Virus record (IMG/VR): IMGVR_UViG_3300009168_000076
Coordinates: 1-38,136 of that record
Length of the DNA: 38,136 nt
Direction: 5' to 3' (one strand)
From: a virus
Part shown: in pieces, positions 22,119 to 38,136 of the stretch
How the letters are laid out: every line of letters starts with the position of its first letter
Position numbering within the stretch: position 1 is the first letter of the stretch
The notes under the pieces: model-generated
What the model was told of the DNA's origin: nothing
Databases searched by the model: none
Seen by the model: only the letters and a program-made list of their open reading frames with translations
Program-made: the position numbers and the translations under genes

Positions 22119-22726
22119 TGCCGGTCGGGCCGTACTCGCAGGATGTGCTGACGCGCATCTACAATGTGCACTGGGCTGAGGGCCTTTCACTTGCAGTATT
22201 ATCGCTTGGTTTTTCTGCCAGACCGTTAGGTATTTATATAGACAGCACTCCGACCATCGCGACATTGTCGGTACAAGGTCTTCCCCTGCTTGATCCAAGT
22301 ACGTTCAAGGTGAATGCGGTGGAAGGGACCCATCCGTCTTTCCCCCCCTGGTACGGTGGCCGTACTGAGCTGACCATGCCCGTCGGAGAGTCAGGCACAC
22401 TGAAAGCGAATTGGTCGCTTCGGCAATTGCCAGTCGTGGGTACTGTGTCCGGCCAGGTTACCTACGACAGTTCTACAACTCCGCCTCAGAAACCGTTCCT
22501 GGGGGAAAACACAATACAAATAAAAGTTGCCATGAACTTGAGGCCGACCGTAGCTTTTGCAGACAATTATTATGAGTGGCAGGCAATCGCCACCGCAATC
22601 ATACCAGGGTTGTTCAACAACCCAATGGCGAAATCCGGAAGGGCCGCGCCTGAAGAAACCCTGACATTTACTCTGGATGTGATCATAGACCCACCCAGCG
22701 CCACGTTTTCTGCTGGAGGAACTTGA
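22118..22726 (+). CDS. virion-associated protein of unknown family, AT-richer
   Basis: This 202-residue protein is mostly beta-strand, with YIDSTPTIATLSVQGLPLLD, GGRTELTMPVGESGTLKANW and TLTFTLDVIIDPPSATFSAG. Codon use is visibly more AT-rich (runs such as TTATATAGACAG near 22230) than in flanking genes, suggesting recent exchange. Position among fibre genes and beta-rich make-up suggest a tail-tip decoration or adhesin partner. I recognise no family. Confidence 0.6.
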   Translation: MPVGPYSQDVLTRIYNVHWAEGLSLAVLSLGFSARPLGIYIDSTPTIATLSVQGLPLLDPSTFKVNAVEGTHPSFPPWYGGRTELTMPVGESGTLKANWSLRQLPVVGTVSGQVTYDSSTTPPQKPFLGENTIQIKVAMNLRPTVAFADNYYEWQAIATAIIPGLFNNPMAKSGRAAPEETLTFTLDVIIDPPSATFSAGGT

Positions 22727-23653
22727 ATGCTCGTCTGTAACGTCATCCAATCGCGGCGGCGGGCGGCGATCGCGGCCGATGTTGCCGAGGCTGCCGCGGC
22801 GTTGGATGCACCGGGGACCGGCAACGTCGTCTTCGCCACGCTGGTGGACGACCCGGCTTCGGTGGGCGACCACGTCGATGCGTTCCTCGGGCAGATCATG
22901 CGCGAGGTGGCAAACGCCAGCTCCACCGTCACTGCCGGGCTCGCCTACGCTGCCGGGATCGTCGAAGCGGCAGCCGCTGCCGATACGTCTTCTGTGCCTG
23001 TTGTTGGAACGGTGGCGGAGACGGCTACCGCGGCATCCACGCAAGATGCTTCGGTGATCAGCGGCGTTGCGTATGCAACATGGGACCCGGCGACCGTTAC
23101 CGCTGTCACACTCTCAGGCGGCAATCTGGTCGCCACCAATACCGGAACGACTTCGGCCGACCAGGGGGCGCGAGCCGCCAGTACGGCAGGCAAGACCACC
23201 GGCAAGTTCTATTTCGAGGCGACGTTCACGACGAACACGGGTGGCGCCAATCGTGGTCTAGGCATAGGCACAACAGCATCGACTTATACCGGCATGAGTA
23301 ATAGCGCGACGACGGGCAGTGTTGTGTATGTGACTTCTGGGGCTATTTATTCGAATGGCTCTAGCCAAGGAATTTCTATCAGCGGGAGTGGCTCAACGTA
23401 CGGAATGGCGGTTGATCTGACCAACCGGAAGATCTGGTTCCGTCGCGGAGCTTCGGGCAATTGGAATAATAACGCCACCTATGACCCGGCTACCAATGTC
23501 GGAGGTGTCACAATCCCGGCGGGCACGATGGTGCCGTTTGTAGTTTTTGGCGGCACTGCTGGCGCCGCCAATAATGTGTTTACTGCCAATTTCGGTGCGT
23601 CTGCATTCGCTGGCGCCGTGCCATCCGGGTTCACCTCGGGGTGGACTGCCTAG
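22727..23653 (+). CDS. tail fibre protein with SPRY-like C-terminal domain
   Basis: The 308 residues comprise an Ala/Thr-rich helical first third (about 1-110) and a C-terminal domain that matches the SPRY/B30.2 pattern: GKFYFEATFTTNTGGANRGL, YGMAVDLTNRKIWFRRGASG, NWNNNATYDPATNVGG and a final FTANFGASAF. SPRY domains in phage fibres are taken to bind host surface ligands. GGAGG precedes the ATG by seven bases. This is a good candidate for host-range determinant. Confidence 0.76.
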   Translation: MLVCNVIQSRRRAAIAADVAEAAAALDAPGTGNVVFATLVDDPASVGDHVDAFLGQIMREVANASSTVTAGLAYAAGIVEAAAAADTSSVPVVGTVAETATAASTQDASVISGVAYATWDPATVTAVTLSGGNLVATNTGTTSADQGARAASTAGKTTGKFYFEATFTTNTGGANRGLGIGTTASTYTGMSNSATTGSVVYVTSGAIYSNGSSQGISISGSGSTYGMAVDLTNRKIWFRRGASGNWNNNATYDPATNVGGVTIPAGTMVPFVVFGGTAGAANNVFTANFGASAFAGAVPSGFTSGWTA

Positions 23654-27970: not shown

Positions 27971-28145
27971 GTCGCGCCGCCATCAACAGCGGACTGAACC
28001 GCACCGGGCACCCGGGATCGTGGATCGCCGCGGCCAAGCCGTCGATGATCTCTTGTCGCGTCATTGGCGAACTCATTTCCTGTCGCCCCTGATCTGCCGC
28101 GCCAAATGCTCCAGCAACTCGGGCAGCATAGAATTTGGCAATCAT
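27957..28145 (-). CDS. small unknown protein, start uncertain
   Basis: The frame gives up to 62 residues, ending PMTRQEIIDGLAAAIHDPG and then CPVRFSPLLMAARHDPA. The longest start (28145) has GGGAG ten bases upstream. A shorter start at 28076 (MSSPMTRQ) overlaps the TGA of an 18-codon ORF in another frame (MLPELLEHLARQIRGDRK, 28130-28074), which also reads as plausible protein, so a two-gene arrangement is possible. Function unknown. Confidence 0.5.
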   Translation of the reverse strand: MIAKFYAARVAGAFGAADQGRQEMSSPMTRQEIIDGLAAAIHDPGCPVRFSPLLMAARHDPA

Positions 28146-28357
28146 CGGATTATTCTCCCAAGAACGAATGGAGATTTTTCCACGGATTTTACACGGATCG
28201 GAGCGCCTCGTTCACGCTCCGTTGCGTCGCGAAACGTCGTGAGCCGGCGCGGCAAGGCCAATAAATGCGGGGGTTTGTGGGATAGAAACGGAGCGGCCCG
28301 CCTCCGGGGGGAGAGAAAGGACGCTGTTGACGGATCAATGGGTTGCGGGTTGGTCAT
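28142..28357 (-). CDS. doubtful Arg/Pro-rich ORF downstream of integrase
   Basis: The 71-codon frame starts three bases after the preceding stop and overlaps the next start, so its placement is gene-like. However, the product is Arg/Ser/Pro-rich with no clear fold (SPRRRAAPFLSHKPPHLLA). The same DNA holds repeated CCACGGATTTT motifs and could be a non-coding control or attachment region. If it is not a gene, 28146-28360 is otherwise empty. Confidence 0.38.
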   Translation of the reverse strand: MTNPQPIDPSTASFLSPRRRAAPFLSHKPPHLLALPRRLTTFRDATERERGAPIRVKSVEKSPFVLGRIIR

Positions 28358-28376
28358 GGGTCAGTCCACGGATTTT
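28180..28376. repeat. CCACGGATTTT repeats near integrase
   Basis: CCACGGATTTT occurs at 28180-28190 and 28366-28376, and a related ACACGGAT directly follows the first copy (28191-28198). Such short direct repeats downstream of an integrase could be arm-type or attachment-related sites; no tRNA end or core site is visible to support this. Confidence 0.3.
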
Positions 28377-28561
28377 CCAAGAATCTGAGCCTGTAGGCGG
28401 CCCAGCGTCGCACACGCTTTGTCTACGTCGGCAATCCAATTGGTGTCGCCATAGCGAGCAACAATCCGTTGCTCGTCGTCGTGCTTAACCGAGCCGGGGG
28501 CACCGCCGTTCGTCCATCCCCAAAACTCCATGTAGCTCTTAACATCGGCCAGGGCGCTCAT
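28361..28561 (-). CDS. small protein after integrase
   Basis: The 66 residues begin MSALADVKSYMEFWGWTNGG and end LGRLQAQILGKSVD. The ATG at 28561 is chosen because a near-perfect AGGAGGA lies a few bases upstream, right after the integrase stop. The frame is open back to 28639 but would then overlap the integrase with poor sequence. Unknown function; possibly a recombination accessory factor by position only. Confidence 0.65.
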   Translation of the reverse strand: MSALADVKSYMEFWGWTNGGAPGSVKHDDEQRIVARYGDTNWIADVDKACATLGRLQAQILGKSVD

Positions 28562-28571
28562 TCTCGTCCTC

Positions 28572-29615
28572 CTATGCTGTCTTCTTTTCCACACTCGGCA
28601 GATTGTCGACCCGATTCCATTCCTCGCGCTGGACGGCATGCGCGTAGCGGCTGGCCGACCGTTCGTCGCGCCAGTTTCCGGTCGCCACCAGCCCCTTTAC
28701 ATCGGCCCCGGCGCGCCGCATCCAAGTCGCCCAGGTGTGCCTGAACGAATGGAAGTTGAGCCACTGAAGCCGGTTCGGCGGTTGGCGCCAGCCGGTTGGG
28801 CGCTCAACGGGGGCAGGCATGCCCAGCGCTGCCAGCTTGGCGCGGACAAGCAGATATTTGAGCCGTCCGCCTTGCCCGAAGGTGAACACGCGCCCTACGG
28901 GCTCCTGTGGGCGGCGGGCGGCCATCCCGGCCACCAGCTCGCCCCGCAGCCGCACCGGGGACGCCGGCCCGCCCTTGCTGCGGCGGACCCAGGCCGTTGC
29001 TTCGTCGAGCTGCAAGTCTTCCCAGCGCAGACGCAGCGCCTCATTGAGCCGTAGGCCGGTGAACAGCAGGTAGCGCAGCAGCAGCCCGAATTGGGGGTTG
29101 ATCTTGTCGGCTGCCGTGATGATGGCGCGGGCGTCGGCTTCTGAAATCCAGTCGGTGACGACCCGGCCCTTGGCACCCTTCGGCCGGCGGATGGTGATCT
29201 TGATGCCGGCGTGGTGCAGGATCGCGGACACCGGTGTATAGACGCAGGCATTGCGCGTGCCGGGCGTGGTGTTCGGGCAGATCGCGATCGCGGCTTCATC
29301 GATCGCCGCCTGGTCGATCTCTGTGAGGGGCGTCTCTCCGAAATGCTTGATCAGCCTGGCAACATATTTCGGCCGCCGGCCGGCTTCCATGTACGCAACG
29401 GCTGCACTCAGGAACGTTGGTTGTCCACGATCAGTTGGGGCTTCTTTGGGCGGGTACTCGCCGCGCTCGATGGCCTCTTCAAGTCGCTTGAGTTCGGCAA
29501 CAGCGACTGATCGTTTGTGAGTTCCGCAGCTCTTGTCCACGCGGATACCGCGGTACGTCCCCCGGATCGAGTAGTTCGGGCTTTTGCCTTTGCGGGGGTC
29601 TTTGAGCTTGAGCAT
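28572..29615 (-). CDS. int: tyrosine-type site-specific integrase
   Basis: This 347-residue phage integrase catalyses attP x attB recombination. The first 60 residues are a basic arm-binding-like region (MLKLKDPRKGKSPNYSIRG). The core-binding part follows (about 65-160). The catalytic domain shows box I TGLRLNEALRLRWEDL (the conserved Arg), the RRSKGG beta-hairpin Lys, FHSFRHTWATWMRRAG (H-x-x-R), and the terminal NWRDERSASRYAHA with the Tyr nucleophile. All catalytic positions are present, so it should be active. The excisionase frame overlaps its 5' end by 208 bases. Confidence 0.95.
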   Translation of the reverse strand: MLKLKDPRKGKSPNYSIRGTYRGIRVDKSCGTHKRSVAVAELKRLEEAIERGEYPPKEAPTDRGQPTFLSAAVAYMEAGRRPKYVARLIKHFGETPLTEIDQAAIDEAAIAICPNTTPGTRNACVYTPVSAILHHAGIKITIRRPKGAKGRVVTDWISEADARAIITAADKINPQFGLLLRYLLFTGLRLNEALRLRWEDLQLDEATAWVRRSKGGPASPVRLRGELVAGMAARRPQEPVGRVFTFGQGGRLKYLLVRAKLAALGMPAPVERPTGWRQPPNRLQWLNFHSFRHTWATWMRRAGADVKGLVATGNWRDERSASRYAHAVQREEWNRVDNLPSVEKKTA

Positions 29616-29776
29616 GGCAGAGCCTCGATCAGTCGGCCGACGTCGATCTCGGTGAATAGCCGAGTGCGCCCGGCCAGCCGTCCGATGTCCCGACCGCGCA
29701 GGAAATCCTGCAACCAGCGCCGGCTCTTGTGAAGGCGCCCGGCCACATCGTCCACGGTATACAGCGGTGCGGTCAT
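29408..29776 (-). CDS. xis: excisionase-type MerR/HTH DNA-binding protein
   Basis: The 122-codon frame begins MTAPLYTVDDVAGRLHKSRR and continues WLQDFLRGRDIGRLAGRTRLFTEIDVGRLIEAL, a compact HTH_17/excisionase winged-helix domain (about 5-55). Such proteins direct integrase towards excision and often bind operator DNA. The remaining residues are Ser/Lys/Arg-rich and overlap the integrase start by 208 bases in another frame, so they are probably a dispensable tail. The start overlaps the preceding stop (ATGA). Confidence 0.78.
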   Translation of the reverse strand: MTAPLYTVDDVAGRLHKSRRWLQDFLRGRDIGRLAGRTRLFTEIDVGRLIEALPCSSSKTPAKAKARTTRSGGRTAVSAWTRAAELTNDQSLLPNSSDLKRPSSAASTRPKKPQLIVDNQRS

Positions 29777-29955
29777 GTTTTCGATTCCACTGCCGCGTCT
29801 ATCAATTCGCAAACCTTTTGAACGAGAAGATCTTTGCACTCGCGTACTCTGCCCGGCTCCTTGCTGACGACAGCGAGGCAGAGGTTTGTCATGTGCAGCC
29901 GAAGTTCGAGTTCGACTTCTGTCGGATTGACCGGCTCGAAGCGGACAGTATGCAT
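29773..29955 (-). CDS. small helical protein before excisionase
   Basis: The 60 residues, MHTVRFEPVNPTEVELELRL and then helices (TNLCLAVVSKEPGRVRECKDLLVQKVCELIDAAVES), form a well-behaved acidic protein. GGAGAAACCCC provides a good ribosome-binding site before the ATG. It is nested in a second frame that runs from 30088 into the excisionase. Function unknown; probably an early regulatory or accessory protein. Confidence 0.68.
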   Translation of the reverse strand: MHTVRFEPVNPTEVELELRLHMTNLCLAVVSKEPGRVRECKDLLVQKVCELIDAAVESKT

Positions 29956-30088
29956 GGGGTTTCTCCATTAGCGATTGCAGCGCCACGAGCGGCCGTTGGT
30001 TGGTGTAGACGCGGCCCTTGCCCTGGTCTCCCCGTGCCCAAAACTCGCAGGTATCGCAGCGTTTCGTTTGGTGCCTATGTCCGCTCAT
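29777..30088 (-). CDS. CxxC small protein whose frame runs into excisionase
   Basis: The ATG at 30088 opens MSGHRHQTKRCDTCEFWARG, then VYTNQRPLVALQ and PHAYCPLRAG. Cys11, Cys14 and Cys48 suggest a small zinc-knuckle protein of a type common in these phages. There is no stop after it: the frame continues through a Ser/Arg-rich stretch, over which the 60-residue gene is read in another frame, directly into the excisionase Met at 29776 and on to 29408. Either a 226-residue fusion is made, or the original stop was lost. Confidence 0.55.
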
Positions 30089-30090
30089 TG

Positions 30091-30327
30091 TCAAAACATC
30101 CATAACGAAACGAGGGCGACGAACGTGTACAAAGCCACGCCTTGAGCGGCGAGCTGCCAGCCGCCTTCTTGGTAGTAGTAGATGCCAACGCAGACGCCGA
30201 GGGCGACGAGCAGCACGTCGATGCGGCGGATGCTTTTCCAGGCATCGGCGTTGATCCATTCCAGCCACACTGCAAACGCCTTGGCCAAGCGTGCCGGCAT
30301 GCGGGGCAGCGTGATCTTGAGGTTCAT
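30091..30327 (-). CDS. two-helix membrane protein
   Basis: The 78 residues have a basic amphipathic N-terminus (MNLKITLPRMPARLAKAFAV) and two transmembrane helices (IDVLLVALGVCVGIYYY and LAAQGVALYTFVALVSLWMF). The start overlaps the upstream stop (ATGA). Function unknown; a membrane protein in the early operon could influence superinfection. Confidence 0.68.
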   Translation of the reverse strand: MNLKITLPRMPARLAKAFAVWLEWINADAWKSIRRIDVLLVALGVCVGIYYYQEGGWQLAAQGVALYTFVALVSLWMF

Positions 30328-30497
30328 TTGGCCTTGGCCTTGGTTTTGAGTTCGGCTTTGACCCTGGCGAGTTCTTCCTTGATCCACCGGCTGAGTTCTT
30401 CGGCGTGCTCGTTCTCGGCGATCCGCTTGGCGCTGAGCTTGCGGCCGGTCTTCCAGTAGCGCGGTGATTTTTCACGGACCTCGGGGTGGGTGGTCAC
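30324..30497 (-). CDS. 57-residue basic helical protein
   Basis: Starting with GTG (GTGA overlap with the upstream stop), it encodes MTTHPEVREKSPRYWKTGRK, then a long charged helix (KRIAENEHAEELSRWIKEEL) and a Lys/Ala tail (KTKAKAK). The sequence is coherent, and overlaps at both ends support it as a real gene that length filters would miss. Basic tail and helix suggest nucleic-acid or membrane-surface binding, not proven. Confidence 0.66.
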   Translation of the reverse strand: MTTHPEVREKSPRYWKTGRKLSAKRIAENEHAEELSRWIKEELARVKAELKTKAKAK

Positions 30498-30631
30498 GAT
30501 CCCATTATCCGCGTTACCGCGACGAACAACCCGTAGGCGGCCAGTACCATTAGCGCCAACACGACGATCCCAAAGCCGGCGATATAGCCAAACGGGATTT
30601 GCCCCATCGTCATGAACTCATGTTCGATCAT
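30494..30631 (-). CDS. 45-residue single-helix membrane protein
   Basis: MIEHEFMTMGQIPFGYIAGF is followed by a strong transmembrane segment (GIVVLALMVLAAYGLFVAV). GGAG lies eight bases before the ATG at 30631. Longer starts upstream give Arg/Ala-rich sequence. It is the first of a run of overlapping small genes down to the excisionase. Function unknown. Confidence 0.62.
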   Translation of the reverse strand: MIEHEFMTMGQIPFGYIAGFGIVVLALMVLAAYGLFVAVTRIMGS

Positions 30632-30728
30632 GCGGGCAGCTCCAGCAGAGCATGATGCGCGTGCGGGACGCGGCACATAACCCGCACGCGCCCTCATGCT
30701 GACGGGAGGGCACCAGAGGGTTGCCCCG

Positions 30729-31316
30729 TCAGGCGTGAGCTTGTTGACGACGGCGTTTCCACCAGACGCCGACCGCGCCGAACGCGGTTAGCAATCCAGG
30801 AATGCCTGCACCTGCGATGGGGCCGGGCACGGCAAGCGTTGATATGTTGCCACCATAACCAGAAGTCCCGCCGCCGGTGCCGGTCAGGCTGACGTAGTAG
30901 GACCCGGCATCAAGCGTGGCGATACCAAACAAGTTCTGGCAGAGATTGGAGCAGCCTAGTGTCGCGAATTGCGGGCCAAACAACAGCGAGTCGTCACCGA
31001 TCCCTGGGCCGTCGAAGAGGTTGTCGAGACCGTAGCTGTAGATCGACGCCGCGAAGTTAGTGATAAAGTCAGTCGTCGTGTTGCCGCCGGGGAAGCTGTT
31101 GGTGGCCGAGGCGACGGTGATAGTTTGTGCGTTGGTCAACTGGAACAGTATTTGGTCGGAGAAGAGACCATTTCCGGTGGCGTTGACGCCGCCGAGGACG
31201 CTGGTGAAATCGCCCTGGGCACTTGTAGGGTTGGAGCCCAAATTATCGATGATTGCTGCGTTGCCCACCACCGTCGTGGCGAGCAGCGCGGCGGTCGCGA
31301 GAAGTAGCTTCTTCAT
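30729..31316 (-). CDS. exported protein with VPGPIAGAGIPG sorting-like tail
   Basis: This 195-residue protein has a Sec signal peptide (MKKLLLATAALLATTVVGNAA up to the AA cleavage region), a Ser/Thr/Gly-rich beta passenger with one CSNLC pair, and a C-terminal AVPGPIAGAGIPGLL, transmembrane helix and basic WWKRRRQQ. This tripartite end resembles PEP-CTERM-type sorting signals and is common in Bradyrhizobium-like hosts. GAGG precedes the ATG. It is probably exported and held at or processed from the inner membrane. Such a protein is unusual in a phage. Confidence 0.78.
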   Translation of the reverse strand: MKKLLLATAALLATTVVGNAAIIDNLGSNPTSAQGDFTSVLGGVNATGNGLFSDQILFQLTNAQTITVASATNSFPGGNTTTDFITNFAASIYSYGLDNLFDGPGIGDDSLLFGPQFATLGCSNLCQNLFGIATLDAGSYYVSLTGTGGGTSGYGGNISTLAVPGPIAGAGIPGLLTAFGAVGVWWKRRRQQAHA

Positions 31317-31348
31317 GTGGTTACCTCATGAGGGTTGGTTGGAAGAAT

Positions 31349-32008
31349 TCAGGCGAGCCCGATCTGCCGCTGCCGCCGCCGCTTGTTGAGCCCGAACAGC
31401 ATGAAGCAAGCTGCGATCAGCCCAGGCAGGCCAGCGCCAGCTATGGGGCCCGGCACTGCCGCGAACGGCGCGACATCGATGCGGAAGTGTTCGAAGTCAG
31501 AGATGGTGCCGCCGATGTTCACCAAGTCCATGTCCCAGATACGCTCGCCGTTGATGGCCTGGAAATCAAACCCGTTCTGCCCGCTCCCGAGCGTGTAGCC
31601 GCCAAAGTTGAAGGTCTGGAAGGTGCCGTCCGCTTCCAAGGCCGTCACATGGAAGAACATGGTCCCGGTGCCTTTGATGCTGAAGATATCTCTTGTGACA
31701 CCAAGTTGGATCAGGTTGTTGCTGTCGAAGACCGTGATGTCCAAGTCCGATGTGTTCACGATCTTGATGTCGTTGCCGTTGGCGGCGCCGGAAAAAGCGC
31801 CGTTGCCGGACAAGTCCCGGAAGCGGACAAACTCGTTGTTCTGGCCGTTGAGGCGGCCAAGGATCAGGCTAGAGTTGGCAATGCTGCTGAAGATGACGTT
31901 GTTGCCGGTGCCACCTTGGCCGGTCGTGTCGATGATGATGTCGGCTTTCGCAGGTGCCGCCATAGCGAGTAAGACGGCTGTGGTCGCGAGCGCGAGTAGT
32001 TTCCTCAT
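31349..32008 (-). CDS. second exported protein with VPGPIAGAGLPG tail
   Basis: This 219-residue protein has a signal peptide (MRKLLALATTAVLLAMAAPA), a beta-rich passenger (NSSLILGRLNGQNNEFVRFR, NTSDLDITVFDSNNLI, FQTFNFGGYTLGSGQNG) and the same C-terminal architecture, AVPGPIAGAGLPGLI, a hydrophobic helix and NKRRRQRQ. The passenger differs from that of its neighbour. AAGGA lies ten bases upstream of the ATG at 32008. Longer starts add unlikely sequence. Role unknown; the pair may modify the lysogen surface. Confidence 0.78.
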   Translation of the reverse strand: MRKLLALATTAVLLAMAAPAKADIIIDTTGQGGTGNNVIFSSIANSSLILGRLNGQNNEFVRFRDLSGNGAFSGAANGNDIKIVNTSDLDITVFDSNNLIQLGVTRDIFSIKGTGTMFFHVTALEADGTFQTFNFGGYTLGSGQNGFDFQAINGERIWDMDLVNIGGTISDFEHFRIDVAPFAAVPGPIAGAGLPGLIAACFMLFGLNKRRRQRQIGLA

Positions 32009-32034
32009 GGGGTGATAGTCCTTCTGGGTTGAGA

Positions 32035-32394
32035 TCATTTCCGGCATCTCCATCGCCGGCCGTAGTCCACGCGACGGAGGCCGTGTCGCGTACAGATGTC
32101 GTCCGGCCGGTAAGCCAGCCTGGTCTTCTTCTTGACTGACTGAGGTGGAGGAGGCCCGAAGGCGGGGATGGACCGGGCCTCCTCCGTCACGACCGGACGC
32201 TCGACCAGGACCGGCGTGAATGGTGTGGCGGTGACGACCAGCGCCGGCGCGCGGAAGCTGTCGGTCTTGACCGCGCGCAGTACGGTCGCCTGCTCGATCG
32301 GCGCCGGCGGCTTCTGCGGCTTGCCGTAGCTCCCGATCGCGAACACCACGAGCGGGACCATGGCGAGCACAATGACTGTCGCGTGAAGCCGCAT
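32035..32394 (-). CDS. membrane-anchored small protein with CxRHG-type C-terminus
   Basis: The 119 residues have an N-terminal signal or anchor helix (MRLHATVIVLAMVPLVVFAI), a Pro/Val-rich periplasmic stretch, and a C-terminal DICTRHGLRRVDYGRRWRCRK-like motif (Cys pair about 17 residues apart, Arg-rich) that resembles tails of small exported proteins in Rhizobiales. GAGG precedes the ATG. The upstream gene ends two bases before its start, so the two are coupled. Confidence 0.7.
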   Translation of the reverse strand: MRLHATVIVLAMVPLVVFAIGSYGKPQKPPAPIEQATVLRAVKTDSFRAPALVVTATPFTPVLVERPVVTEEARSIPAFGPPPPQSVKKKTRLAYRPDDICTRHGLRRVDYGRRWRCRK

Positions 32395-32396
32395 GG

Positions 32397-32564
32397 TCAA
32401 ACCTCGTCCCGCGCGCGCAGCTTGAGCATCTCGGCTTTCTCCCACTCGGCCAGGTCGCGCAGTGCTGCGTGGTTGTCCTCCGCGCTCATGTCGCCGTTGA
32501 GCACCAGTCGGGCGAGGTGCTGGATCATGCGGTCGACGCGCTGCTGGATCTCGCGCTTGGTCAT
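32397..32564 (-). CDS. 55-residue helical protein
   Basis: MTKREIQQRVDRMIQHLARL continues as an almost fully helical acidic-basic protein (SAEDNHAALRDLAEWEKAEMLKLRARDEV). The ATG at 32564 overlaps the preceding stop (ATGA). Upstream in-frame sequence (poly-His) is rejected. Possibly a small regulatory or structural accessory protein; family unknown. Confidence 0.62.
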   Translation of the reverse strand: MTKREIQQRVDRMIQHLARLVLNGDMSAEDNHAALRDLAEWEKAEMLKLRARDEV

Positions 32565-32743
32565 TTCGGGCAGTATCCGTAGGATGTGCAGTACCGCCTC
32601 GGTGCCGGTGCTGTGGTGGTGGTGCAAACCGTCTGGATGCCCCCATCAACCCTGGATGTCGTGCAGCGCGTCGTCATCGTCTGCGCGGACGCCAGCGTGG
32701 TGCTGGCGACGGTCATGGTGGCGGCAATAATTATGATGCTTCG
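32561..32743 (-). CDS. 60-residue exported Cys/Thr-rich peptide
   Basis: From the GTG at 32743 it reads MRSIIIIAATMTVASTTLAS with cleavage after ASA, then a mature part of about 37 residues with four cysteines (TRCTTS, TVCTTT, RYCTSYGYCPK). GGAG seven bases upstream supports this start over an earlier GTG at 32773 that overlaps the RecT stop. It is likely periplasmic. It belongs to the cluster of exported early proteins. Confidence 0.64.
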   Translation of the reverse strand, partial: RSIIIIAATMTVASTTLASAQTMTTRCTTSRVDGGIQTVCTTTTAPAPRRYCTSYGYCPK

Positions 32744-32769
32744 CACAGGTGGTCTCCGTGGTGTTCGAT

Positions 32770-33786
32770 TCACGTCATCAGCCCGCGCAGCGCCGCGATC
32801 TTCGCCTTCAATGCGGCATCAAGCCTGTCACGATCGTCTGGATCGACGTTCAAGCGATTGCGCAAGACTTTCTCGGCTTTCCATCTTTTCTCCCCAGCGT
32901 CGGCGTCGAGCAGGTTTTCGATCCATGCGTGGGTGTCTTGCAGATAGGCAGCAGCAGAGGCCGCGCCGGCTCCCGGTTGTTCTGATTTCCTTTGGGAGGG
33001 ATCAGGATCGGAAGCCGGCTGGCCCGTCGCAGGTGGGGCATCCATTGCTGAAGGCGCCTGCGTCGAAGCTGTGCCCGCACGCGGAGCTTCGTCGGTGATT
33101 TCGCCGGTCTCGGGGTCGTGCGTCTCGGCCTTGGCGGGGATTTGGGCGAGAGCGTCGAGCTTGTCGGCCAGGTTTTTCGCCGGCGTCACGTCCCGCATCT
33201 TCGGCATCGTCTCAAGTTCTTCGACGGCCGGCATGCCGAGCATGACCTCGGGGGCGTAAAGGCGGATCAGCATCGCGGCCGAGCGCCAGCGCAGCATATG
33301 GGCCGGCATGCTTTTGTATTTGGCGTTTTTGGTCCATCCCTCGGCGGCCGCCATACGCATGTCCGCAGACGCGCGGATTTCTTCTCCAGTGGCTGCGAGC
33401 ACTGCCTTTGCAGTCACAGTGAGCGCGTCGCCCTCACCCGCCTCTTCCCATGTGATTGGGCCTTTTAATATCCCAGCGCGGTTGACGCGCGAGATCATGT
33501 AGCTCGTGTACCAACCGGGGCGGCCATTCACGATGTAGATTTGCTGCATGACCGTCAGAGGCTCTTCGTTGAGCCTGCGTGCGATCTGGAGCGCAATAAG
33601 ACAGTCGGCCGTGTTGCCCTGCATGTGTTGCGGGACGAGCTTTGACGAGGCAAAGACCTTGGCAACTCGCTGCGCGTGTTCGAAGGCCGCTGGGTCGGAG
33701 AACAGATCGGTTGATGGCACGAGATGGCGCGTCGGCAACGCTGCGACGTTGCTAGCCTGCTGGACTGCGACTTCGGTGGTGGTCAT
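32770..33786 (-). CDS. recT: RecT-type single-strand annealing protein
   Basis: This 338-residue protein resembles phage RecT-family annealases. The core shows FEHAQRVAKVFASSKLVP, NTADCLIALQIARRLNEEPLTVMQQIYIVNGRPGWYTSYMISRVNRAG (location about 57-105) and a basic KNAKYKSMPAHMLRWRSAAMLIR segment, features of this group. The C-terminal third is Ala/Pro-rich and ends in helices. It anneals single strands left by the partner nuclease encoded upstream (YqaJ-type). The start overlaps the coiled-coil gene stop (ATGA) and AAGGAAG precedes it. Confidence 0.82.
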   Translation of the reverse strand: MTTTEVAVQQASNVAALPTRHLVPSTDLFSDPAAFEHAQRVAKVFASSKLVPQHMQGNTADCLIALQIARRLNEEPLTVMQQIYIVNGRPGWYTSYMISRVNRAGILKGPITWEEAGEGDALTVTAKAVLAATGEEIRASADMRMAAAEGWTKNAKYKSMPAHMLRWRSAAMLIRLYAPEVMLGMPAVEELETMPKMRDVTPAKNLADKLDALAQIPAKAETHDPETGEITDEAPRAGTASTQAPSAMDAPPATGQPASDPDPSQRKSEQPGAGAASAAAYLQDTHAWIENLLDADAGEKRWKAEKVLRNRLNVDPDDRDRLDAALKAKIAALRGLMT

Positions 33787-34682
33787 CGAAAACTTCCTTT
33801 CGTGGTGAGCACGAACGTCACGCCGTCGATCTTGGCGCCGCCGGCTTTGAGCTCGTCCTTGTTCGCGCGCGCGTAGGCGCGTAGCGCCAACATGATCTCG
33901 TCTTCTCGAATGAAGGCCCGGATCGCGAGCAAATCGACCTTCGCGAAGTCGCCGACTTTCGGCTCGTAAGTTTCCAGCAAACTGCTCGTTCCGCCGGCGG
34001 TGTGCGTACGTGCAAGGTCGGCCGTCTTTGCCGTTGCCGCCTTTTCTGTCGCCGCGGTCTGGGCCGTCGCTTCGCTGGCGGCTTTCTGCTCGGCCTGCGC
34101 GCGCGCCGTCGCTGCGGCGACCTCAGCATCAGCTGCGGCCTTCGCCTGTGCCGCTTTCTCCAACGCCCCCGCATCGGCCATTGCTGCGGCCTTGGCGCGG
34201 TCCGCCTCCGCCTTCTCAGCGGCTTCGCGCGCGCGCCGTGCTGCGGCCTCCGCGGCTTCGGCTGCAGCGCGCTGGCGAGCTTCTTCCTCGCGGGCTTTGC
34301 GGGCTTCTTCCTCGCGCGCGATGCGCTCGGCGTCGGCCTTCTTCTTGAGGTATCGGCCGCCGCGGCTCTCGAGATCCGTCTTGAGCGTGAGCAGGCGGTT
34401 TTCAAACGCCTTGAAGAAGGTTTGCACCGTGGTGCCGGCGTCGAGGTAGGGCCGCTTCTCTTGGTCGCGGACCTCGTCGCAATGCTTGGCGCCGGCGCGC
34501 AGATTGGGCACCAGCGCATTGACGATGGCGAGGTCCTCATCGTCTTCAACGACGGGGGCGACGTCCTTCGCTGTAGCCTCAAGTTCAGCCACGAACTTCT
34601 CGATATGCGCGAAGTCCTTCGCGAGCTGGTCGGCGGTGATGAGCGCGGGCCGGTTGTCACCAATGGCAAGTCGGTCAGACAT
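33783..34682 (-). CDS. Ala-rich coiled-coil protein of the recombination module
   Basis: This 299-residue protein has an ordered N-terminal part (MSDRLAIGDNRPALITADQL, LVPNLRAGAKHCDEVRDQEKRPYLDAG), a central coiled coil made of Glu/Arg/Ala/Lys repeats (about 120-215) and a C-terminal domain (VGDFAKVDLLAIRAFIREDE). Proteins of this pattern accompany RecT in phages of Alphaproteobacteria and may help assemble the annealase or single-strand complex. The first codons overlap the end of the homing endonuclease gene. Confidence 0.7.
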   Translation of the reverse strand: MSDRLAIGDNRPALITADQLAKDFAHIEKFVAELEATAKDVAPVVEDDEDLAIVNALVPNLRAGAKHCDEVRDQEKRPYLDAGTTVQTFFKAFENRLLTLKTDLESRGGRYLKKKADAERIAREEEARKAREEEARQRAAAEAAEAAARRAREAAEKAEADRAKAAAMADAGALEKAAQAKAAADAEVAAATARAQAEQKAASEATAQTAATEKAATAKTADLARTHTAGGTSSLLETYEPKVGDFAKVDLLAIRAFIREDEIMLALRAYARANKDELKAGGAKIDGVTFVLTTKGSFR

Positions 34683-35523
34683 TAACGTGCCCCCAGGTTG
34701 TCCCATTCTTGATGTGTGAGATTGTTCGCCTGGAAACACCAAAGTCACAGCCAATCGGCGTACTCCTTTCTCCGCTTGCAATGCGTTTCTTGATTTCGCA
34801 AACCGCTTCTTCATTCAATTTTGCCATGCTGTTACCCTCACCACACGAGAGCCCTTTGGCCTGATAAGCCGCACGACCAGCGGCCGCGCGAGTTTTAAAT
34901 TCTGGGTCGGCGCTGCGCTTGCGCATGCGTTCGGTATTCGCTTTGGTGAATTCCGGGTCAGCGTGAAGCTTAACTAAAGCTTCAGCACGCGCCTTGATGA
35001 ATTCCGGATCGGCATTTTGCTTCCGCGTACGGTCGGAATTAGCCTTCCTAAATTCCGGGTCGGCAGAGCGCTTTCGCATGCGTTCGGAATTGGCCTTCCT
35101 AACCTCCGGCTTTCGCAAACCTTCAACTCTTGCTTTGGAAAACTCAGACTCAGGATCGGTGAGTTGTTTTCGAAAGCGTTCGACGCGCGTCGCAGTAATC
35201 AAACATCCAGACGCGCCATCGCCACCGTCAGTAAGATTGCAAAGAGTGCCCAAGCCAAGATCGCGTCGTCCATATTGGGCGATCAATTCGATTTCGCGCT
35301 GAAAGGCTTCGGTCTCGACATCGAAATGGCCGACGATCTCAATCTGCGGTTCCAAGCCAGATTTGTGAAGTTTGCCAAAGACGCGACGGAGCAATGGATT
35401 CCTATGGTCGAGGGCTTTGCGCCAATGCACGTGTACTCGTCTACCTTTGCCTTTGCCGACGTAGATCGGCTGCAAGTTTTTACCCGGGCGCGGGTCGCGC
35501 ATCACGTAGGTGTAGAAGGTCAT
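34675..35523 (-). CDS. GIY-YIG homing endonuclease with NUMOD-like repeats
   Basis: The product is 282 residues. The N-terminal nuclease has YTYVM (4-8), PIYVGKGKGRRVHVHW (19-34) and EAFQREIELIAQYGRR (72-87), with Arg28/29 and Glu in the expected places, then LCNLTDGGDG. Residues about 120-212 are tandem ADPEF-x-KA-type repeats of about 17 residues, like NUMOD3 DNA-binding modules, and the C-terminus is a helix-turn-helix (STPIGCDFGVSRRTISHIKN). It overlaps the exonuclease stop by one base and the next gene by eight. Codon use is more AT-rich than its neighbours, consistent with a mobile gene. Confidence 0.87.
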   Translation of the reverse strand: MTFYTYVMRDPRPGKNLQPIYVGKGKGRRVHVHWRKALDHRNPLLRRVFGKLHKSGLEPQIEIVGHFDVETEAFQREIELIAQYGRRDLGLGTLCNLTDGGDGASGCLITATRVERFRKQLTDPESEFSKARVEGLRKPEVRKANSERMRKRSADPEFRKANSDRTRKQNADPEFIKARAEALVKLHADPEFTKANTERMRKRSADPEFKTRAAAGRAAYQAKGLSCGEGNSMAKLNEEAVCEIKKRIASGERSTPIGCDFGVSRRTISHIKNGTTWGHVNV

Positions 35524-36443
35524 CAGTTTGCTGCCAAAATTTTGATTGCGCGGTAAGTGGTGGCTTTGACATAAAATTCTGCGCGATTAACGGTGATGTT
35601 CGAGATGCGCCGACCATCGGCGAGGCGCGCGAAGCGGGCAGGGCCCATCTTCTCGTTGATGCCGGTTTTGGCGACCTTCTCGCGCGTCTCGGCATCCTTC
35701 TTGTCGGCGCGCGCGCGCTCGAGGTCGGCCACGAGCTGCGGCGCCATGTTGTCCGCGCTCAAATCGATTTCGCTGCCGTCGTCTTTCGGGAAAAGCTTGG
35801 CGATCAGCGCGCCATCCTTCCCATAGTCGGGGTCGGGCGGCGTTCCCGCCTCGATGCGGCGCCAAAACTCGGCGACCTCGTATTTCAGCCGATCGATGAT
35901 GCCTTCGTGCAGCGGGATGGGGATGAGTTCGATCTCAACACCGAAGCTGACGCGCATCGGCGCGACGGCCGCCCATTCGGCGCCGGTCAGGTACGCCTCG
36001 ATGAGGGCTTGCACCACGATCCACAGTGGCGGATCGACGACGCCGTTCTCTCCGCGCCAGTCGCGGCGGAAGATTGAGGGCTCGACATTTTTTATTTGGA
36101 TTACGCCGAGCCGTCCTTTGGCGTCCCTCGCCAGCACGTCTGGCGTAGCGCCAATGCGCGCCTCAGGATCGAGATAATACGTCCCTACCGGGTATTCTTC
36201 TAGCGTAATGGCGGGGTAATCTTCTCGGATCAACTGAACCGCGACAGGCTCCAAAAGCCTTCCGCGCTTCATCGGCGCCGTCTCTTCGACGTCGTCGGCG
36301 ACCAATCCGGCCTTGACCATGTGCAAGCTATAGGGGGTCCAGTGGGGATGGACGCCGAGCAGGCCGCCACCAACGGACCCGGTGATGGCGAACGCCCGGA
36401 GCGGGTGAACCCGTCCGTCCGTCATGGGGTGACGTTCGATCAT
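35523..36443 (-). CDS. YqaJ-type viral recombinase exonuclease
   Basis: This 306-residue 5'-3' exonuclease is of the lambda Exo/YqaJ group, which resects double-strand ends for RecT-mediated annealing. The catalytic PD-(D/E)xK core is visible: MKRGRLLEPVAVQLI (Glu), GATPDVLARDAKGRLGVIQIKN (Asp and Gln-x-Lys). Next come WIVVQALIEAYLTGAEWAAV and a C-terminal helix region. It pairs functionally with the RecT gene further along the operon. The ATG at 36443 overlaps the upstream stop (ATGA). The longer frame to 36521 lacks support. Confidence 0.86.
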   Translation of the reverse strand: MIERHPMTDGRVHPLRAFAITGSVGGGLLGVHPHWTPYSLHMVKAGLVADDVEETAPMKRGRLLEPVAVQLIREDYPAITLEEYPVGTYYLDPEARIGATPDVLARDAKGRLGVIQIKNVEPSIFRRDWRGENGVVDPPLWIVVQALIEAYLTGAEWAAVAPMRVSFGVEIELIPIPLHEGIIDRLKYEVAEFWRRIEAGTPPDPDYGKDGALIAKLFPKDDGSEIDLSADNMAPQLVADLERARADKKDAETREKVAKTGINEKMGPARFARLADGRRISNITVNRAEFYVKATTYRAIKILAAN

Positions 36444-36619
36444 GACGGGTGCCCTTCCTGTCCAACCACCTCCGGATCTTTGTAAATCAGTTTGAAACAT
36501 TGACGCATGAGATCGAGCCATAGGTTCCGCTCGGTCTCCGGCCAGACGCTGCCCACTTCCGGTAGACGGGCAATGAGCGCTCCAATGATCGGATCGACTG
36601 CGTATCCGGGCGTCATCAT
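36440..36619 (-). CDS. 59-residue conserved-type phage protein
   Basis: MMTPGYAVDPIIGALIARLP and EVGSVWPETERNLWLDLMRQ, then CFKLIYKDPEV, form a short helical protein with a GSVWP motif that I know from phages of Alphaproteobacteria, where it is usually a hypothetical early protein. Both ends overlap neighbours (ATGA at the stop; the start lies in the preceding gene's last codons). Short length hides it from many predictions. Confidence 0.7.
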   Translation of the reverse strand: MMTPGYAVDPIIGALIARLPEVGSVWPETERNLWLDLMRQCFKLIYKDPEVVGQEGHPS

Positions 36620-36927
36620 TTCAATCGCTCTTCACGGTGTAGGTGCCGGTCAGGTTCGGCGATGCGGCTCCGCTTGACGCCGAGCGATCCATCGCCCGAC
36701 CATTCGAGCCAAGTCCTTTCGGCGGGCAGAAATGCACCGGCGATTGATGGCTGGAAGCTGCGAAGCATCTGGCTGCGCAGGCACCAACTCAGTTGTTTGA
36801 TGGCCGTTACTTCAAAGCAGTGGAATTCTTCGCGGAATTGCGCGAGCAGTTCCGGCTCAAGATGCACCTGCCTCTGTTTCACCAGCAGCATCATGTCCTT
36901 CACGATGCGATAAGCGAGCGGGGTCAT
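36616..36927 (-). CDS. conserved-type early protein
   Basis: The 103 residues begin MTPLAYRIVKDMMLLVKQRQ. They include FREEFHCFEVTAIKQLSW and a FLPAERTWLEW motif, a pattern recurring in early regions of alphaproteobacterial phages. The start at 36927 overlaps the upstream stop (ATGA), and a GTG three codons earlier is the alternative. No enzymatic motif is seen; possibly a nucleic-acid or protein-binding early factor. Confidence 0.68.
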   Translation of the reverse strand: MTPLAYRIVKDMMLLVKQRQVHLEPELLAQFREEFHCFEVTAIKQLSWCLRSQMLRSFQPSIAGAFLPAERTWLEWSGDGSLGVKRSRIAEPDRHLHREERLK

Positions 36928-37331
36928 GCGATCCACTCCCGCTCGGCTTCGGTCGCGTTGGCAGCCGCGCGTATTGGCGCGTAGAGATAGTCGGCGGCGA
37001 CATCGACAAACGCCGACACGAACTGCTGGCAGTCGACCTTCTCGCCGGCGACGAGGTGCTGGTTGAGATCCTCGACCACCGCTTTGAGATACTTGAGGTA
37101 ATTTCCGGTCACCGCGCGGACGTGCATCTCGCGCAGCCCGATGTCGGTTTCGTCGGCGCCGCGGGCGGTGCGAATGACAGTGGGCTTCGCCGCCGCGAGC
37201 TTGGCGATCAGTTCGGCGTGCGCCTGATGCGGCGGCGACAGGGCGGGGCGCGCGGGGCGCTCCGTCTGCGGCTCAGGGCCGAGCAGCTCGTCGGCGGGGT
37301 TGGTCGCCCTCCAGGCGTCGTAGGATCTCAT
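36924..37331 (-). CDS. early protein of unknown function
   Basis: The 135 residues start MRSYDAWRATNPADELLGPE. A Pro/Ala-rich N-terminal part leads to helices: HAELIAKLAAAKPTV and NYLKYLKAVVEDLNQHLVAG, then VSAFVDVAADYLYAPIRAAA. It starts four bases after the previous stop. A predicted all-helical C-terminal domain is all that can be said. Confidence 0.64.
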   Translation of the reverse strand: MRSYDAWRATNPADELLGPEPQTERPARPALSPPHQAHAELIAKLAAAKPTVIRTARGADETDIGLREMHVRAVTGNYLKYLKAVVEDLNQHLVAGEKVDCQQFVSAFVDVAADYLYAPIRAAANATEAEREWIA

Positions 37332-37335
37332 GGCC

Positions 37336-37560
37336 CTACGCCCCCACCGCGACGGTCTCGCCCGCCTCGTCCGGCACGCGGACCGCGACGGCGGCGATTT
37401 CGGGCGCCGCCATGGTCACCATCAATTTGACGGTCCTGAATGCTTGGCCGCCCATGCTTTCTTGGCACTGGGACAGCGCGATATCGGCGTCGATATCGGC
37501 GACGTAATCGCCGTCCTCGTTGAGGCAGACGAAGACTTCGAGGTCGTGGAGTTTCGGCAT
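37336..37560 (-). CDS. first early gene after the operator region, unknown
   Basis: The 74 residues begin MPKLHDLEVFVCLNEDGDYV and are mostly beta strands with a VKLMVTMAAPEIAAVAVRVP C-terminus. GGGAG lies before the ATG. It is the first gene downstream of the palindromic promoter region and so probably an immediate-early gene. I know similar small proteins from alphaproteobacterial phages, without function. Confidence 0.66.
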   Translation of the reverse strand: MPKLHDLEVFVCLNEDGDYVADIDADIALSQCQESMGGQAFRTVKLMVTMAAPEIAAVAVRVPDEAGETVAVGA

Positions 37561-37588
37561 GGGCGGCTCCCGGTGAACGTGGGGAGCA

Positions 37589-37631
37589 GTGCTACACTAC
37601 GTAGCAGAGGCCGTCAACTACGTTTTGTAGC
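37589..37631 (-). promoter_or_regulatory. early promoter with paired palindromic operators
   Basis: Two copies of the palindrome RCTAC-N5-GTAGC lie at 37591-37605 and 37617-37631, with centres 26 bases apart. On the - strand TTGACG (37617-37612) followed by 17 bases and a weak TAGCAC (37594-37589) would make a promoter whose core is straddled by the two sites. It faces the early genes to its left. A dimeric repressor binding both sites could control the leftward operon or the adjacent toxin-antitoxin pair. Confidence 0.5.
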
Positions 37632-37634
37632 AAT

Positions 37635-37829
37635 TCAAAATTGTTTGGCTAATCCGGCTTGTTTCAGCACTGCGTTCGCCAAGTGGCGGGATGCAATCTT
37701 GCTGTCGACCGGGAAGCGCTTGTTGGAAACCGGGCTTTCCCAGATTTCATGGTCGCCCTTCCCCGATCTGACGACAAAACAACCGGCTTCACGCAGAAGT
37801 TTTTTTAACGCCGGGGTAAAATTATTCAT
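37635..37829 (-). CDS. hicA: HicA-type mRNA interferase toxin
   Basis: This 64-residue protein with the double-stranded-RNA-binding-like HicA fold contains ALKKLLREAGCFVVRSGKGD, then HEIWESP with the catalytic His in the G-x-H-x-x-W context, and FPVDSKIASRHLANAVLKQAG. It would cut mRNA when freed from its antitoxin. The start overlaps the antitoxin stop (ATGA), ensuring coupled synthesis. Its order, antitoxin first, is the reverse of classical hicAB. Confidence 0.82.
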   Translation of the reverse strand: MNNFTPALKKLLREAGCFVVRSGKGDHEIWESPVSNKRFPVDSKIASRHLANAVLKQAGLAKQF

Positions 37830-38056
37830 GCCACGCGCGTGTTCACGACGCTGAATTTGTGGGCCACGATGCTGAACGGAATTTCCGTGTCCGGGTACGC
37901 TTCTGCCAAAAGACTTCGCAGCACAATTGGGATTCGTTCCAGCAATTCGTTCAATGTAGGAGCACCAGTTGCTAACGCGTGGCGATCGTCAATATCCGCG
38001 GTGGCCCACCAGGATTCGGAGTCGGGATCAAATTCAGCCTTAATGACGATCAGCAT
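37826..38056 (-). CDS. DUF1902/HicB-like antitoxin
   Basis: The 76 residues, MLIVIKAEFDPDSESWWATA and DIDDRHALATGAPTLNELLE, then RIPIVLRSLLAEAYP, match the DUF1902 pattern, a HicB-like partial RNase H fold that neutralises HicA. No DNA-binding domain is attached, so autoregulation would need another factor. The ATG at 38056 has no good Shine-Dalgarno. The frame is open to a TTG at 38116, so the N-terminus is uncertain. It is the last gene in the window. Confidence 0.76.
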   Translation of the reverse strand: MLIVIKAEFDPDSESWWATADIDDRHALATGAPTLNELLERIPIVLRSLLAEAYPDTEIPFSIVAHKFSVVNTRVA

Positions 38057-38136
38057 TGGCACAGGCTTTGATCTCTTGAAGGCATCGGGTGGCACCAAGT
38101 TTTTTCCGGTCAACAAATAGGCATCCGAGACATTGA

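Follow-up and report, generated by a model that had tools for sequence, protein, structure and literature searches.

Why would a phage keep, between its RecT and integrase genes, a run of small exported proteins, two of which end in what resembles a bacterial protein-sorting signal? The question is raised by a 38,136-nucleotide stretch of viral DNA (IMG/VR record IMGVR_UViG_3300009168_000076, positions 1 to 38,136; this whole stretch is called the window below), which belongs to a tailed phage of soil bacteria. The two genes concerned lie on the - strand and are named P2 (31349..32008), encoding a predicted exported protein of 219 amino acids (aa), and P1 (30729..31316), encoding one of 195 aa. 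In this study, P2 and P1 are interpreted, with a probability of roughly 0.5, as a phage surface-display cassette that is sorted by exosortase-type machinery of the host and probably masks or remodels surface glycans.

The P2-P1 gene pair and its tails

The block between the RecT and integrase genes encodes, in order and all on the - strand, a small exported protein, a 76-aa protein, a 119-aa protein, P2, and P1. P2, the first cassette gene, specifies a putative signal peptide, MRKLLALATTAVLLAMAAPAKA (31943..32008, - strand; cleavage inferred by eye and hydropathy), a predicted beta-sandwich resembling carbohydrate-binding modules (CBMs), and a VPGPIAGAGLPG tail; the sorting-tag-like C-terminus, VPGPIAGAGLPGLIAACFMLFGLNKRRRQRQIGLA, is encoded at 31352..31456 (- strand) and appears in the AlphaFold2 model as helix 194–217. 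P1, the second cassette gene, is related to the FxDxF PEP-CTERM family and carries a VPGPIAGAGIPG tail, its sorting-tag-like C-terminus, VPGPIAGAGIPGLLTAFGAVGVWWKRRRQQAHA (30732..30830, - strand), being recognised from the sequence. The genes start at 32008 and 31316, respectively, are 32 nt apart within a same-strand run, and are preceded by ribosome-binding-like sequences, AAGGA upstream of P2 and GAGG upstream of P1.

Both proteins end in VPGPIAGAG(L/I)PG, followed by a hydrophobic helix and an Arg/Lys cluster. The initial annotation had described two open reading frames (ORFs) of this architecture, and both were found at the positions it gave; with 0.00 matches to the tail DNA pattern expected in the shuffled window, the architecture is not due to chance. 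The pattern catches the P1 copy only, because the Ile codon ATA of P2 falls outside it. Clear N-terminal hydrophobic segments were seen, by eye and by hydropathy, in P2, P1, the 119-aa product, and the small product near 32743. The earlier statement that four of five consecutive genes look exported therefore stands, except that position 32743 reads CGA, which is no start codon; the nearest start is the GTG at 32746. Judged from these sequence features, P2 and P1 are probably exported, membrane-tagged surface proteins.

Distribution of the tail and exchange with recognised sorting tags

The tail is not confined to this pair. At least 119 viral stretches contain a match to the DNA pattern for VPGP(I/V)(A/V)GAG(L/I/F)PG, which disposes of the possibility, raised with the initial annotation, that the motif has no relatives elsewhere. 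From the pattern loci 133 tail ORFs were extracted. Under a hydropathy rule, 118 of them begin with a signal-like segment; contig ends truncate some of the remaining 15. Tail length in the loci had a median of 33 residues (range 27–44). A three-class scan of the loci gave 173 non-redundant tail proteins, comprising 136 of class G (VPxPxxGxGxP), 28 of class W (VPE..W), and 9 of class L (VPLPA-like), which fall into 7 multi-member ectodomain families and 13 singletons. A looser first scan gave 30 further ORFs, several of them plainly false (opposite strand, without a signal).

Tails of different classes alternate within the same ectodomain families. The P2 family (fam0) has 48 G, 24 W, and 5 L tails among 77 non-redundant members, and the P1 family (fam2) has 12 G, 1 W, and 1 L among 14; the corresponding figures are 11 G, 2 W, and 0 L of 13 for fam3 and 4 G and 1 L of 5 for fam5. 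Only G tails were found in fam1 (38 members) and fam4 (11 members), both of which were retrieved solely via the G-class pattern. When 60 non-redundant P2 relatives (alignment A1) were compared with PEP-CTERM models at E up to 0.1, matches were obtained with PF07589 (15/60), PEPxxWA-CTERM (13/60), TIGR02595 (13/60), and VPLPA-CTERM (2/60). VPEP tails are carried by relatives such as those in loci L066, L068, L078, and L080, whereas the window tails read VPGPIAGAG, without Pro-Glu-Pro. Because it is exchanged for recognised tags on the same proteins, the window tag appears to do the same job as they do, and this exchange is the best evidence for such a function. Within the P1 alignment, residues V163, P164, P166, and A170 are invariant in 14/14 members. 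Sequence comparison thus supports the view that the tails work in the manner of sorting tags of the exosortase type, and the PEP-CTERM-style signal proposed initially is upheld to the extent that the tail alternates with PF07589, PEPxxWA, and VPLPA tails in the same families and that the P1 family matches NF038126.

Hybrid tails, in which VPGPVAG is followed by VPEPATW or VPEPGTW, were seen in two P2 relatives, L016 (9953–10642, + strand) and L021 (214–903, + strand). On their sequence, they are apparently intermediate between two tag classes.

Concordance of tail class and pairing of ectodomains

Tail class agrees in 24/24 non-redundant loci with two or three tail proteins. Ten of these 24 were fetched by the G-class pattern and contain at least one G member by selection. 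The remaining 14, fetched by P2 homology, comprise 7 G, 4 W, and 3 L loci and are concordant in 14/14 cases (exact permutation P = 8.3e-6, phage relatedness ignored). One of the six peptides used in the first P2 search lies in the window tail helix; those of the A1 search do not. The looser scan showed, in addition, a W-class second tail in L034, which is concordant with the P2 of that locus and was not counted by the stricter scan.

Recent tandem duplication was considered as the source of the matching tails. Identity of tail DNA within a locus was 0.56–0.79 (0.93 in L074), compared with a mean of 0.66 between loci (207 random G-class pairs). Since tails of one locus are hardly closer in DNA than those of different loci, the concordance is not simply the result of recent copying, and duplication was rejected except in L074.

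The families also follow a pairing rule. First genes come from families 0, 1, 4, and 6 and second genes from families 2, 3, and 5; all assignable pairs (20/20) join a first with a second gene, in that order in 19/20 (L081 is reversed) and within 400 nt in 18/20 (1.3 kb apart in L099 and 3.9 kb in L071). Four further multi-tail loci, with singletons or an unassigned truncated ORF, were left out of the count. The split into first and second genes was read from the data, and the shuffle test, which allows any split, returned a two-sided pairing graph in 8 of 200,000 label shufflings. Profile comparison points to a probable remote kinship of fam1 with fam4 (hhalign E 4.5e-6, probability 87). Common ancestry of the families was considered and set aside, P2 being not detectably related to fam1 or fam4, nor P1 to fam3 or P2. 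It is strongly supported that first- and second-gene ectodomains are unrelated and freely combined, and that the tag is kept in one class per locus. Matching of the tag to the host would follow from the swaps and the concordance.

Comparison of synteny in related phages, suggested at the outset as a way to recognise cargo, revealed a block swapped between kept flanks. Two sister contigs, L208 and L211, have no DNA match to positions 30742..31933 (- strand), which cover the P2 ectodomain and tail, the spacer, and P1 up to its last codons. On either side they match the window at 85–93%, namely 90.9% over 32783–34667, 85.0% over 31934–32401 (the 119-aa gene and the P2 signal peptide), and 92.9% over 30338–30741 (the P1 end and a 67-aa gene). 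A fam4 protein stands in place of P2 and a fam3 protein in place of P1, both with G-class tails. The whole contig of L208 (G763) is collinear with the window through the capsid, portal, and tail genes (head 83%, portal 86%) and gave no match to the window integrase or endolysin. The window phage and G763 are mosaic, with the block boundaries lying inside the signal peptide and at the tail end.

Other genes also differ between the two phages. In the adjacent late genes at 22118–22726 and 22727–23653 (+ strand), the first 27 and 72 residues, respectively, are conserved and the remainder is unmatched in G763, as expected of receptor-binding tips, and the fibre at 10751–12928 differs as well. Covariation of receptor-binding proteins with the cassette gives no support by itself, because fibres differ in G700, where P2 is kept.

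Relatives, predicted fold, and composition of P2 and P1

No convincing Pfam, NCBIfam, or PHROG family was found for window P2, and a search of 50,697 phage records with a limit of E 1 returned no match. Searching IMG/VR with the P2 sequence gave 79 distinct loci, and searching it with A1 gave 135 confirmed viral stretches, from which 80 loci were kept. Among 84,980 bacterial and archaeal genomes, A1 found one match of 28 residues, on a contig of a Rhizobium metagenome-assembled genome (L090, 1262–1345; genome G001). This piece is a true P2 start (KADVIIDPHLSGTGDNVVFDSF) followed by a stop a few codons on, and because of the early stop it is taken to be either a disrupted copy or a product of misassembly. 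Divergent chromosomal relatives may have escaped the scans, whose search peptides are short and not the same each time. A second P2-related stretch was noted in L008 (3–359, - strand), at the locus end and on the opposite strand, about 10 kb from the main copy.

Window P1 matched NCBIfam NF038126 ("FxDxF family PEP-CTERM protein") with E 4e-4 and 20.5 bits (cut-off 50), its residues 7–189 aligning to profile positions 2–164 of 165. All 14 sequences aligned for P1, among them the window copy, matched the model (E up to 0.1), with E 2.6e-21 for the best relative.

AlphaFold2 predicted P2 from 60 sequences with a mean predicted local distance difference test score (pLDDT) of 87.5 and 13 strands; the model has an N-terminal helix (2–15), a beta domain, a low-confidence linker, and the C-terminal helix. 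An N-terminal helix is likewise predicted for P1. For P2, Foldseek ranked the flagellar sheath protein FlaA1 first, with a low template-modelling (TM) score, and then many CBMs. Upon realignment with VIA-align 2, CBM29 was best by Z (8.2, root-mean-square deviation 3.6, 120 aligned), at the edge of the level of a common arrangement. On this model the P2 ectodomain is predicted to be, as a borderline match, a CBM-like beta-sandwich. The BFVD fold search gave low-TM matches only, several of which are tail fibres.

The ectodomains of the tail families contain Thr 10.4, Ser 7.1, Asn 8.3, Cys 0.7, Lys 1.1, and Arg 1.8%, compared with Thr 6.5, Ser 5.8, Asn 2.7, Cys 1.1, Lys 4.1, and Arg 7.2% in the remaining proteins of the window. 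By family, Cys amounts to 1.0–2.1% in five and is very low in fam0 (P2 0.0%) and fam3. Section 5 of the report on PEP-CTERM proteins (PMC1569441) describes these as enriched in Thr, Ser, and Asn, with few Cys and basic residues; Thr, Ser, Asn, Lys, and Arg of the ectodomains follow this trend, and Cys does so in P2. The ratio of non-synonymous to synonymous substitution rates (dN/dS) of P2 had a median of 0.34 (range 0.08–0.67; 875 pairs with dS between 0.05 and 1.5), showing that P2 is under purifying selection and is not decaying.

Search for a host tail and a sorting enzyme

Several results weigh against a cassette sorted by the host. With DNA patterns, the VPGPxxGAGxPG tail was found in 0/297 and 0/385 genomes around the order and class of G001, and with other patterns in 0/5 (genus), 0/39 (family), and 0/3 (another order) genomes; the part of the initial annotation that had the signal used by the presumed host was not borne out. 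G001 itself, the Rhizobium genome with the P2-like piece, has no exosortase and no such tail. An exosortase (PF09721) was detected in 29/240 genomes of the G001 class, all of them among the 385 searched for the tail, which leaves 29 exosortase carriers without the VPGPxxGAGxPG tail by these patterns; use of the tail by a known exosortase is thus not demonstrated, and the check for an exosortase-like host partner yielded none linked to it. Among phage records, PF09721 was found in 0/50. Neither P2 nor P1 of the window matched TIGR02595 or PF07589, and P2 matches no PEP-CTERM model. As to structure, alongside CBMs the two Foldseek searches also rank other folds, the similarity to CBMs is of the degree of a common arrangement, and the P1 model is weak (AlphaFold2 pLDDT 69.4; CBM35-like matches, none with E below 0.001). 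Low Cys, a PEP-CTERM trait, is absent from the P1 family (1.2%). The concordance and pairing tests ignore phage relatedness, and the swap was seen in two sister contigs only, which differ elsewhere too.

The reach of the tail search was gauged with 55 distinct G-class tails from homology-found phage loci; 27, 37, and 20 of them are caught by the three DNA patterns. Because the genome samples were drawn evenly over groups, they hold few genomes per genus. Given partial recovery and even sampling, the zeros bound the frequency of the tail and leave a host possible; they say little about a tail on a single gene and more about hosts that tag many proteins. An enzyme reading VPGPxxGAGxPG may reside in poorly sampled host groups, or the tag may be handled otherwise. 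A tblastn search of plasmids and phages with the short tail gave no matches, and here the low-complexity filter of BLAST may mask the query; a profile search (A7) gave 0/240, had no positive control, and is uninformative. VPGPIVGAGLPG tails may occur in Bradyrhizobium proteins.

The same zeros would be accounted for if the tail were a plain membrane anchor, that is, a C-terminal transmembrane helix with positive-inside residues that involves no sorting enzyme and leaves the proteins in the inner membrane, exposed to the periplasm. The genomes searched revealed neither a host nor an enzyme with this tail, window P2 lies outside the PEP-CTERM models, and basic clusters are normal stop-transfer features. 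A plain anchor, however, needs no conserved motif ahead of the helix, and in the P1 family four such residues are the same in all 14 aligned members; moreover, the tail gives way to recognised tails of the PEP-CTERM and VPLPA types, with class agreement in 24/24 loci. We consider a plain anchor rather unlikely and lean towards handling of the tag by a host exosortase-type enzyme.

Proposed mode of action and comparison with known systems

In the proposed mode of action, P2 and P1 would be transcribed early and exported through the Sec route of the host, after which the C-terminal helix would hold them in the membrane. A tag-reading enzyme of the host would process them or pass them to the surface, in or through the outer envelope. 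The tag class would have to fit this enzyme, which on this proposal is why it is conserved within a phage, and the ectodomains would be pressed to change and be swapped as a block. Lectin-like ectodomains may then bind glycans of the envelope or exopolysaccharide and so cover or rearrange those used by tail fibres; as a result, rivals would be excluded, or progeny would be freed from receptor debris in the fashion of T5 Llp. We infer that P2 and P1 act together and that glycan binding benefits the phage; surface remodelling and a block to superinfection, both suggested in the initial annotation, would fit this scheme. Receptor masking as the specific role is put forward tentatively and is more doubtful than the cassette itself.

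On a wider view, the pair may represent modular, host-addressed display, in which lectin-like ectodomains are exchanged as a block and the tag stays in the class of the host enzyme. VPGPxxGAGxPG would then be an undescribed sorting signal, discovered on phages ahead of the host enzyme, and hosts of uncultured phages could be predicted from the tag class; we rate this at somewhat less than an even chance. If it is true, phages use a bacterial envelope-sorting route to put their own glycan-binding proteins on infected cells, a kind of control over the host surface that was not found described for PEP-CTERM-type signals in the literature searched, and a large group of hypothetical genes in soil phages becomes easier to approach. 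Tag class would serve as a host clue for uncultured phages, and the VPGPxxGAGxPG tag would imply an unknown sorting enzyme.

The CBM-like fold of P2 and the PEP-CTERM-like composition also agree with a role in matrix formation or adhesion, in which the displayed lectin-like pair would tie infected cells or lysogens to exopolysaccharide in a floc or biofilm and keep hosts dense for the progeny, with no exclusion. In Zoogloea resiniphila, floc formation requires PEP-CTERM proteins, as stated in PMC9012009. On the other side, replacement of ectodomains with kept flanks and occurrence in records without a detected integrase (39/50, some perhaps fragments) fit short-lived competition at least equally well. 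Although this is the main alternative to a display cassette that masks or remodels glycans, we regard it as unlikely.

PEP-CTERM/exosortase systems (EpsH; TIGR02595, PF07589, PF09721) resemble the P2-P1 pair in having a signal peptide, a Pro motif with a hydrophobic helix and a basic cluster near the C-terminus, Thr/Asn-rich ectodomains, like tags within one genome, and fast ectodomain turnover. According to Haft et al. (PMC1569441), PEP-CTERM regions are more alike within species than between species. The window tails differ in reading VPGP rather than PEP and in leaving the models unmatched; in addition, the window genes are phage-borne and lie 32 nt apart in a multi-gene operon, with no exosortase found on phages, whereas PEP-CTERM genes are described in Haft et al. 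2006 (PMC1569441) as mostly single-gene operons with a long upstream region. The likeness to NF038126 extends to 14/14 P1 alignment members, and the difference is that window P1 scores below the cut-off, is phage-borne, and belongs to a family with mostly VPGP tails. The models VPLPA-CTERM (TIGR03370) and PEPxxWA-CTERM (NF035944) match P2 and P1 relatives in other phages, and the window tag is of another sequence class. With CBM29, CBM22, and CBM61 (P2) and CBM35 (P1), the predicted ectodomains share a beta-sandwich fold, but identity is about 10%, Z is about 8 at best for P2, and no E below 0.001 was obtained for P1.

T5 Llp acts by receptor masking, by which it excludes other phages and keeps progeny and debris apart. 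Its likeness to the pair is that of a small exported phage product at the cell envelope and concerns the proposed mode; no sequence relation was looked for. In PMC9409062, Llp, a lipoprotein of 77 aa, is listed with T4 Imm among superinfection-blocking phage envelope proteins. No description of phage-borne PEP-CTERM proteins was found in the literature searched, which takes in few subscription papers; passages of PMC12642866, PMC4886054, and PMC9012009, papers in which phages or prophages and PEP-CTERM or exosortase are both named, concern bacterial genes. A phage-borne recombining pair with exchangeable exosortase-type tags was likewise not found described in that literature, and each of its parts has a known relative.

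Neighbourhood of P2 in other phages

The loci compared were fetched by P2 or P1, so the presence of P2 in 105 of them is by construction; they span at most 10 kb on each side. The other 42 window ORFs are rarely shared (endolysin in 25 loci, tail fibre in 13, P1 in 13, and most in fewer than 10), and the block is not ordinary conserved phage core, a possibility that the initial annotation had left standing. Near P2 were found an SNF2-type helicase in 27 loci (same strand in 26/27), a family A DNA polymerase in 19 (15/19), and an exonuclease in 14 (14/14).

Endolysin relatives occur in 26/106 P2 loci, at a median distance of 2.6 kb and usually downstream, which might point to a lysis or envelope-disruption accessory, with the exported pair acting late at the envelope together with the endolysin. 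However, the endolysin is on the opposite strand in 23/26, P2 shares its strand with the helicase, DNA polymerase, and exonuclease genes, and no enzymatic feature is visible; this role is highly improbable.

A tyrosine integrase was found in 11/50 phage records, which may be fragments; two of the 11 represent one phage, being the window and its parent contig. Records without integrase may be virulent or incomplete phages. With integrase in so few records and replication genes as the common neighbours, the pair, which had been linked to lysogens at first, appears in these records not to be mainly a lysogen feature, and a role in lytic infection has to be considered. In G696, the record of L044, integrase matches lie at 24–248 and 45699–46064, at both contig ends, the second below the cut-off; this suggests a complete, circularly permuted phage genome.

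IMG/VR contigs are predictions, and many are fragments, so that the contigs could in principle be misclassified bacterial DNA and the genes ordinary host PEP-CTERM genes. This is contradicted by gene content, since genes for terminase, portal, capsid, tail, endolysin, integrase, and RecE/RecT are all present in the window; frequent P2 neighbours elsewhere are phage polymerase, helicase, and virion genes, and the bacterial genomes yielded the one interrupted 28-residue piece only. We find such an artefact hardly credible. Contigs L190, L203, and L212, whose tails looked host-like, were examined as misclassified bacterial VPGP contigs and rejected as such, their ORFs including terminase-, portal-, or capsid-like proteins (by eye).

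Phage and host context

The window is identical throughout to IMG/VR contig IMGVR_UViG_3300027743_000033 (52,412 bases), reversed, positions 14277–52412. Its + strand carries terminase, portal, tail fibre, tape measure, and endolysin genes and encodes a protein with matches to families of the major head protein as well as of the head protease; the - strand carries the integrase gene and genes of the RecT and RecE types. Encoded on the other 14 kb of the parent contig are RusA, a protein resembling primase-helicases, and a GcrA protein (PF07750, E 1.1e-30). GcrA is a cell-cycle regulator of alphaproteobacteria, and the host is therefore probably an alphaproteobacterium. GcrA-like proteins (PF07750) at 6740–7243 (- strand) of L234, which is the parent contig, and at 6586–7038 (- strand) of L051 point to alphaproteobacterial hosts.

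An IS21-type transposase and helper pair is inserted in the phage early region at 11591–13886 of L234. Full-length plasmid matches to it were found at about 69–71% DNA identity, among those listed in Beijerinckiaceae, Roseomonas, and Bradyrhizobium. All 15 listed best plasmid matches are alphaproteobacterial; Burkholderia leads the full tally of 1,088 plasmid records. The element is a weak pointer to an alphaproteobacterial host.

Other genes in and around the block

The RecT-like annealing protein (32770..33786, - strand) forms the upstream flank of the block, and the tyrosine integrase (28572..29615, - strand) lies downstream in the same direction. The gene at 32035..32394 (- strand) encodes a 119-aa companion, predicted to be membrane-anchored, with a C-terminal DICTRHGLRRVDYGRRWRCRK mini-domain; tblastn matches were found in 33 loci, some on the same contig. 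The mini-domain, about DxCxRHxMRKVxxxxGxSWRCRR, is conserved, and the family is often close to P2. The 76-aa protein (32397..32627, - strand) is without an N-terminal hydrophobic segment and has matches in 6 loci. The small exported Cys-containing protein (32561..32746, - strand; 61 aa, GTG start at 32746) had no match among the loci compared. Below P1, the 67-aa protein (30494..30697, - strand) has one hydrophobic helix and is 92% identical in the sister phage. A sigma-70 promoter scan of 28000–38136 found none, against 2.2 expected, and is uninformative.

By eye, the N-terminus of the ORF at 34675–35523 (- strand) is GIY-YIG-like; the ORF contains internal repeats (34896–34938 and 35049–35091, 86%) and finds no match in the sister phage G763. 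It is probably a mobile endonuclease insertion.

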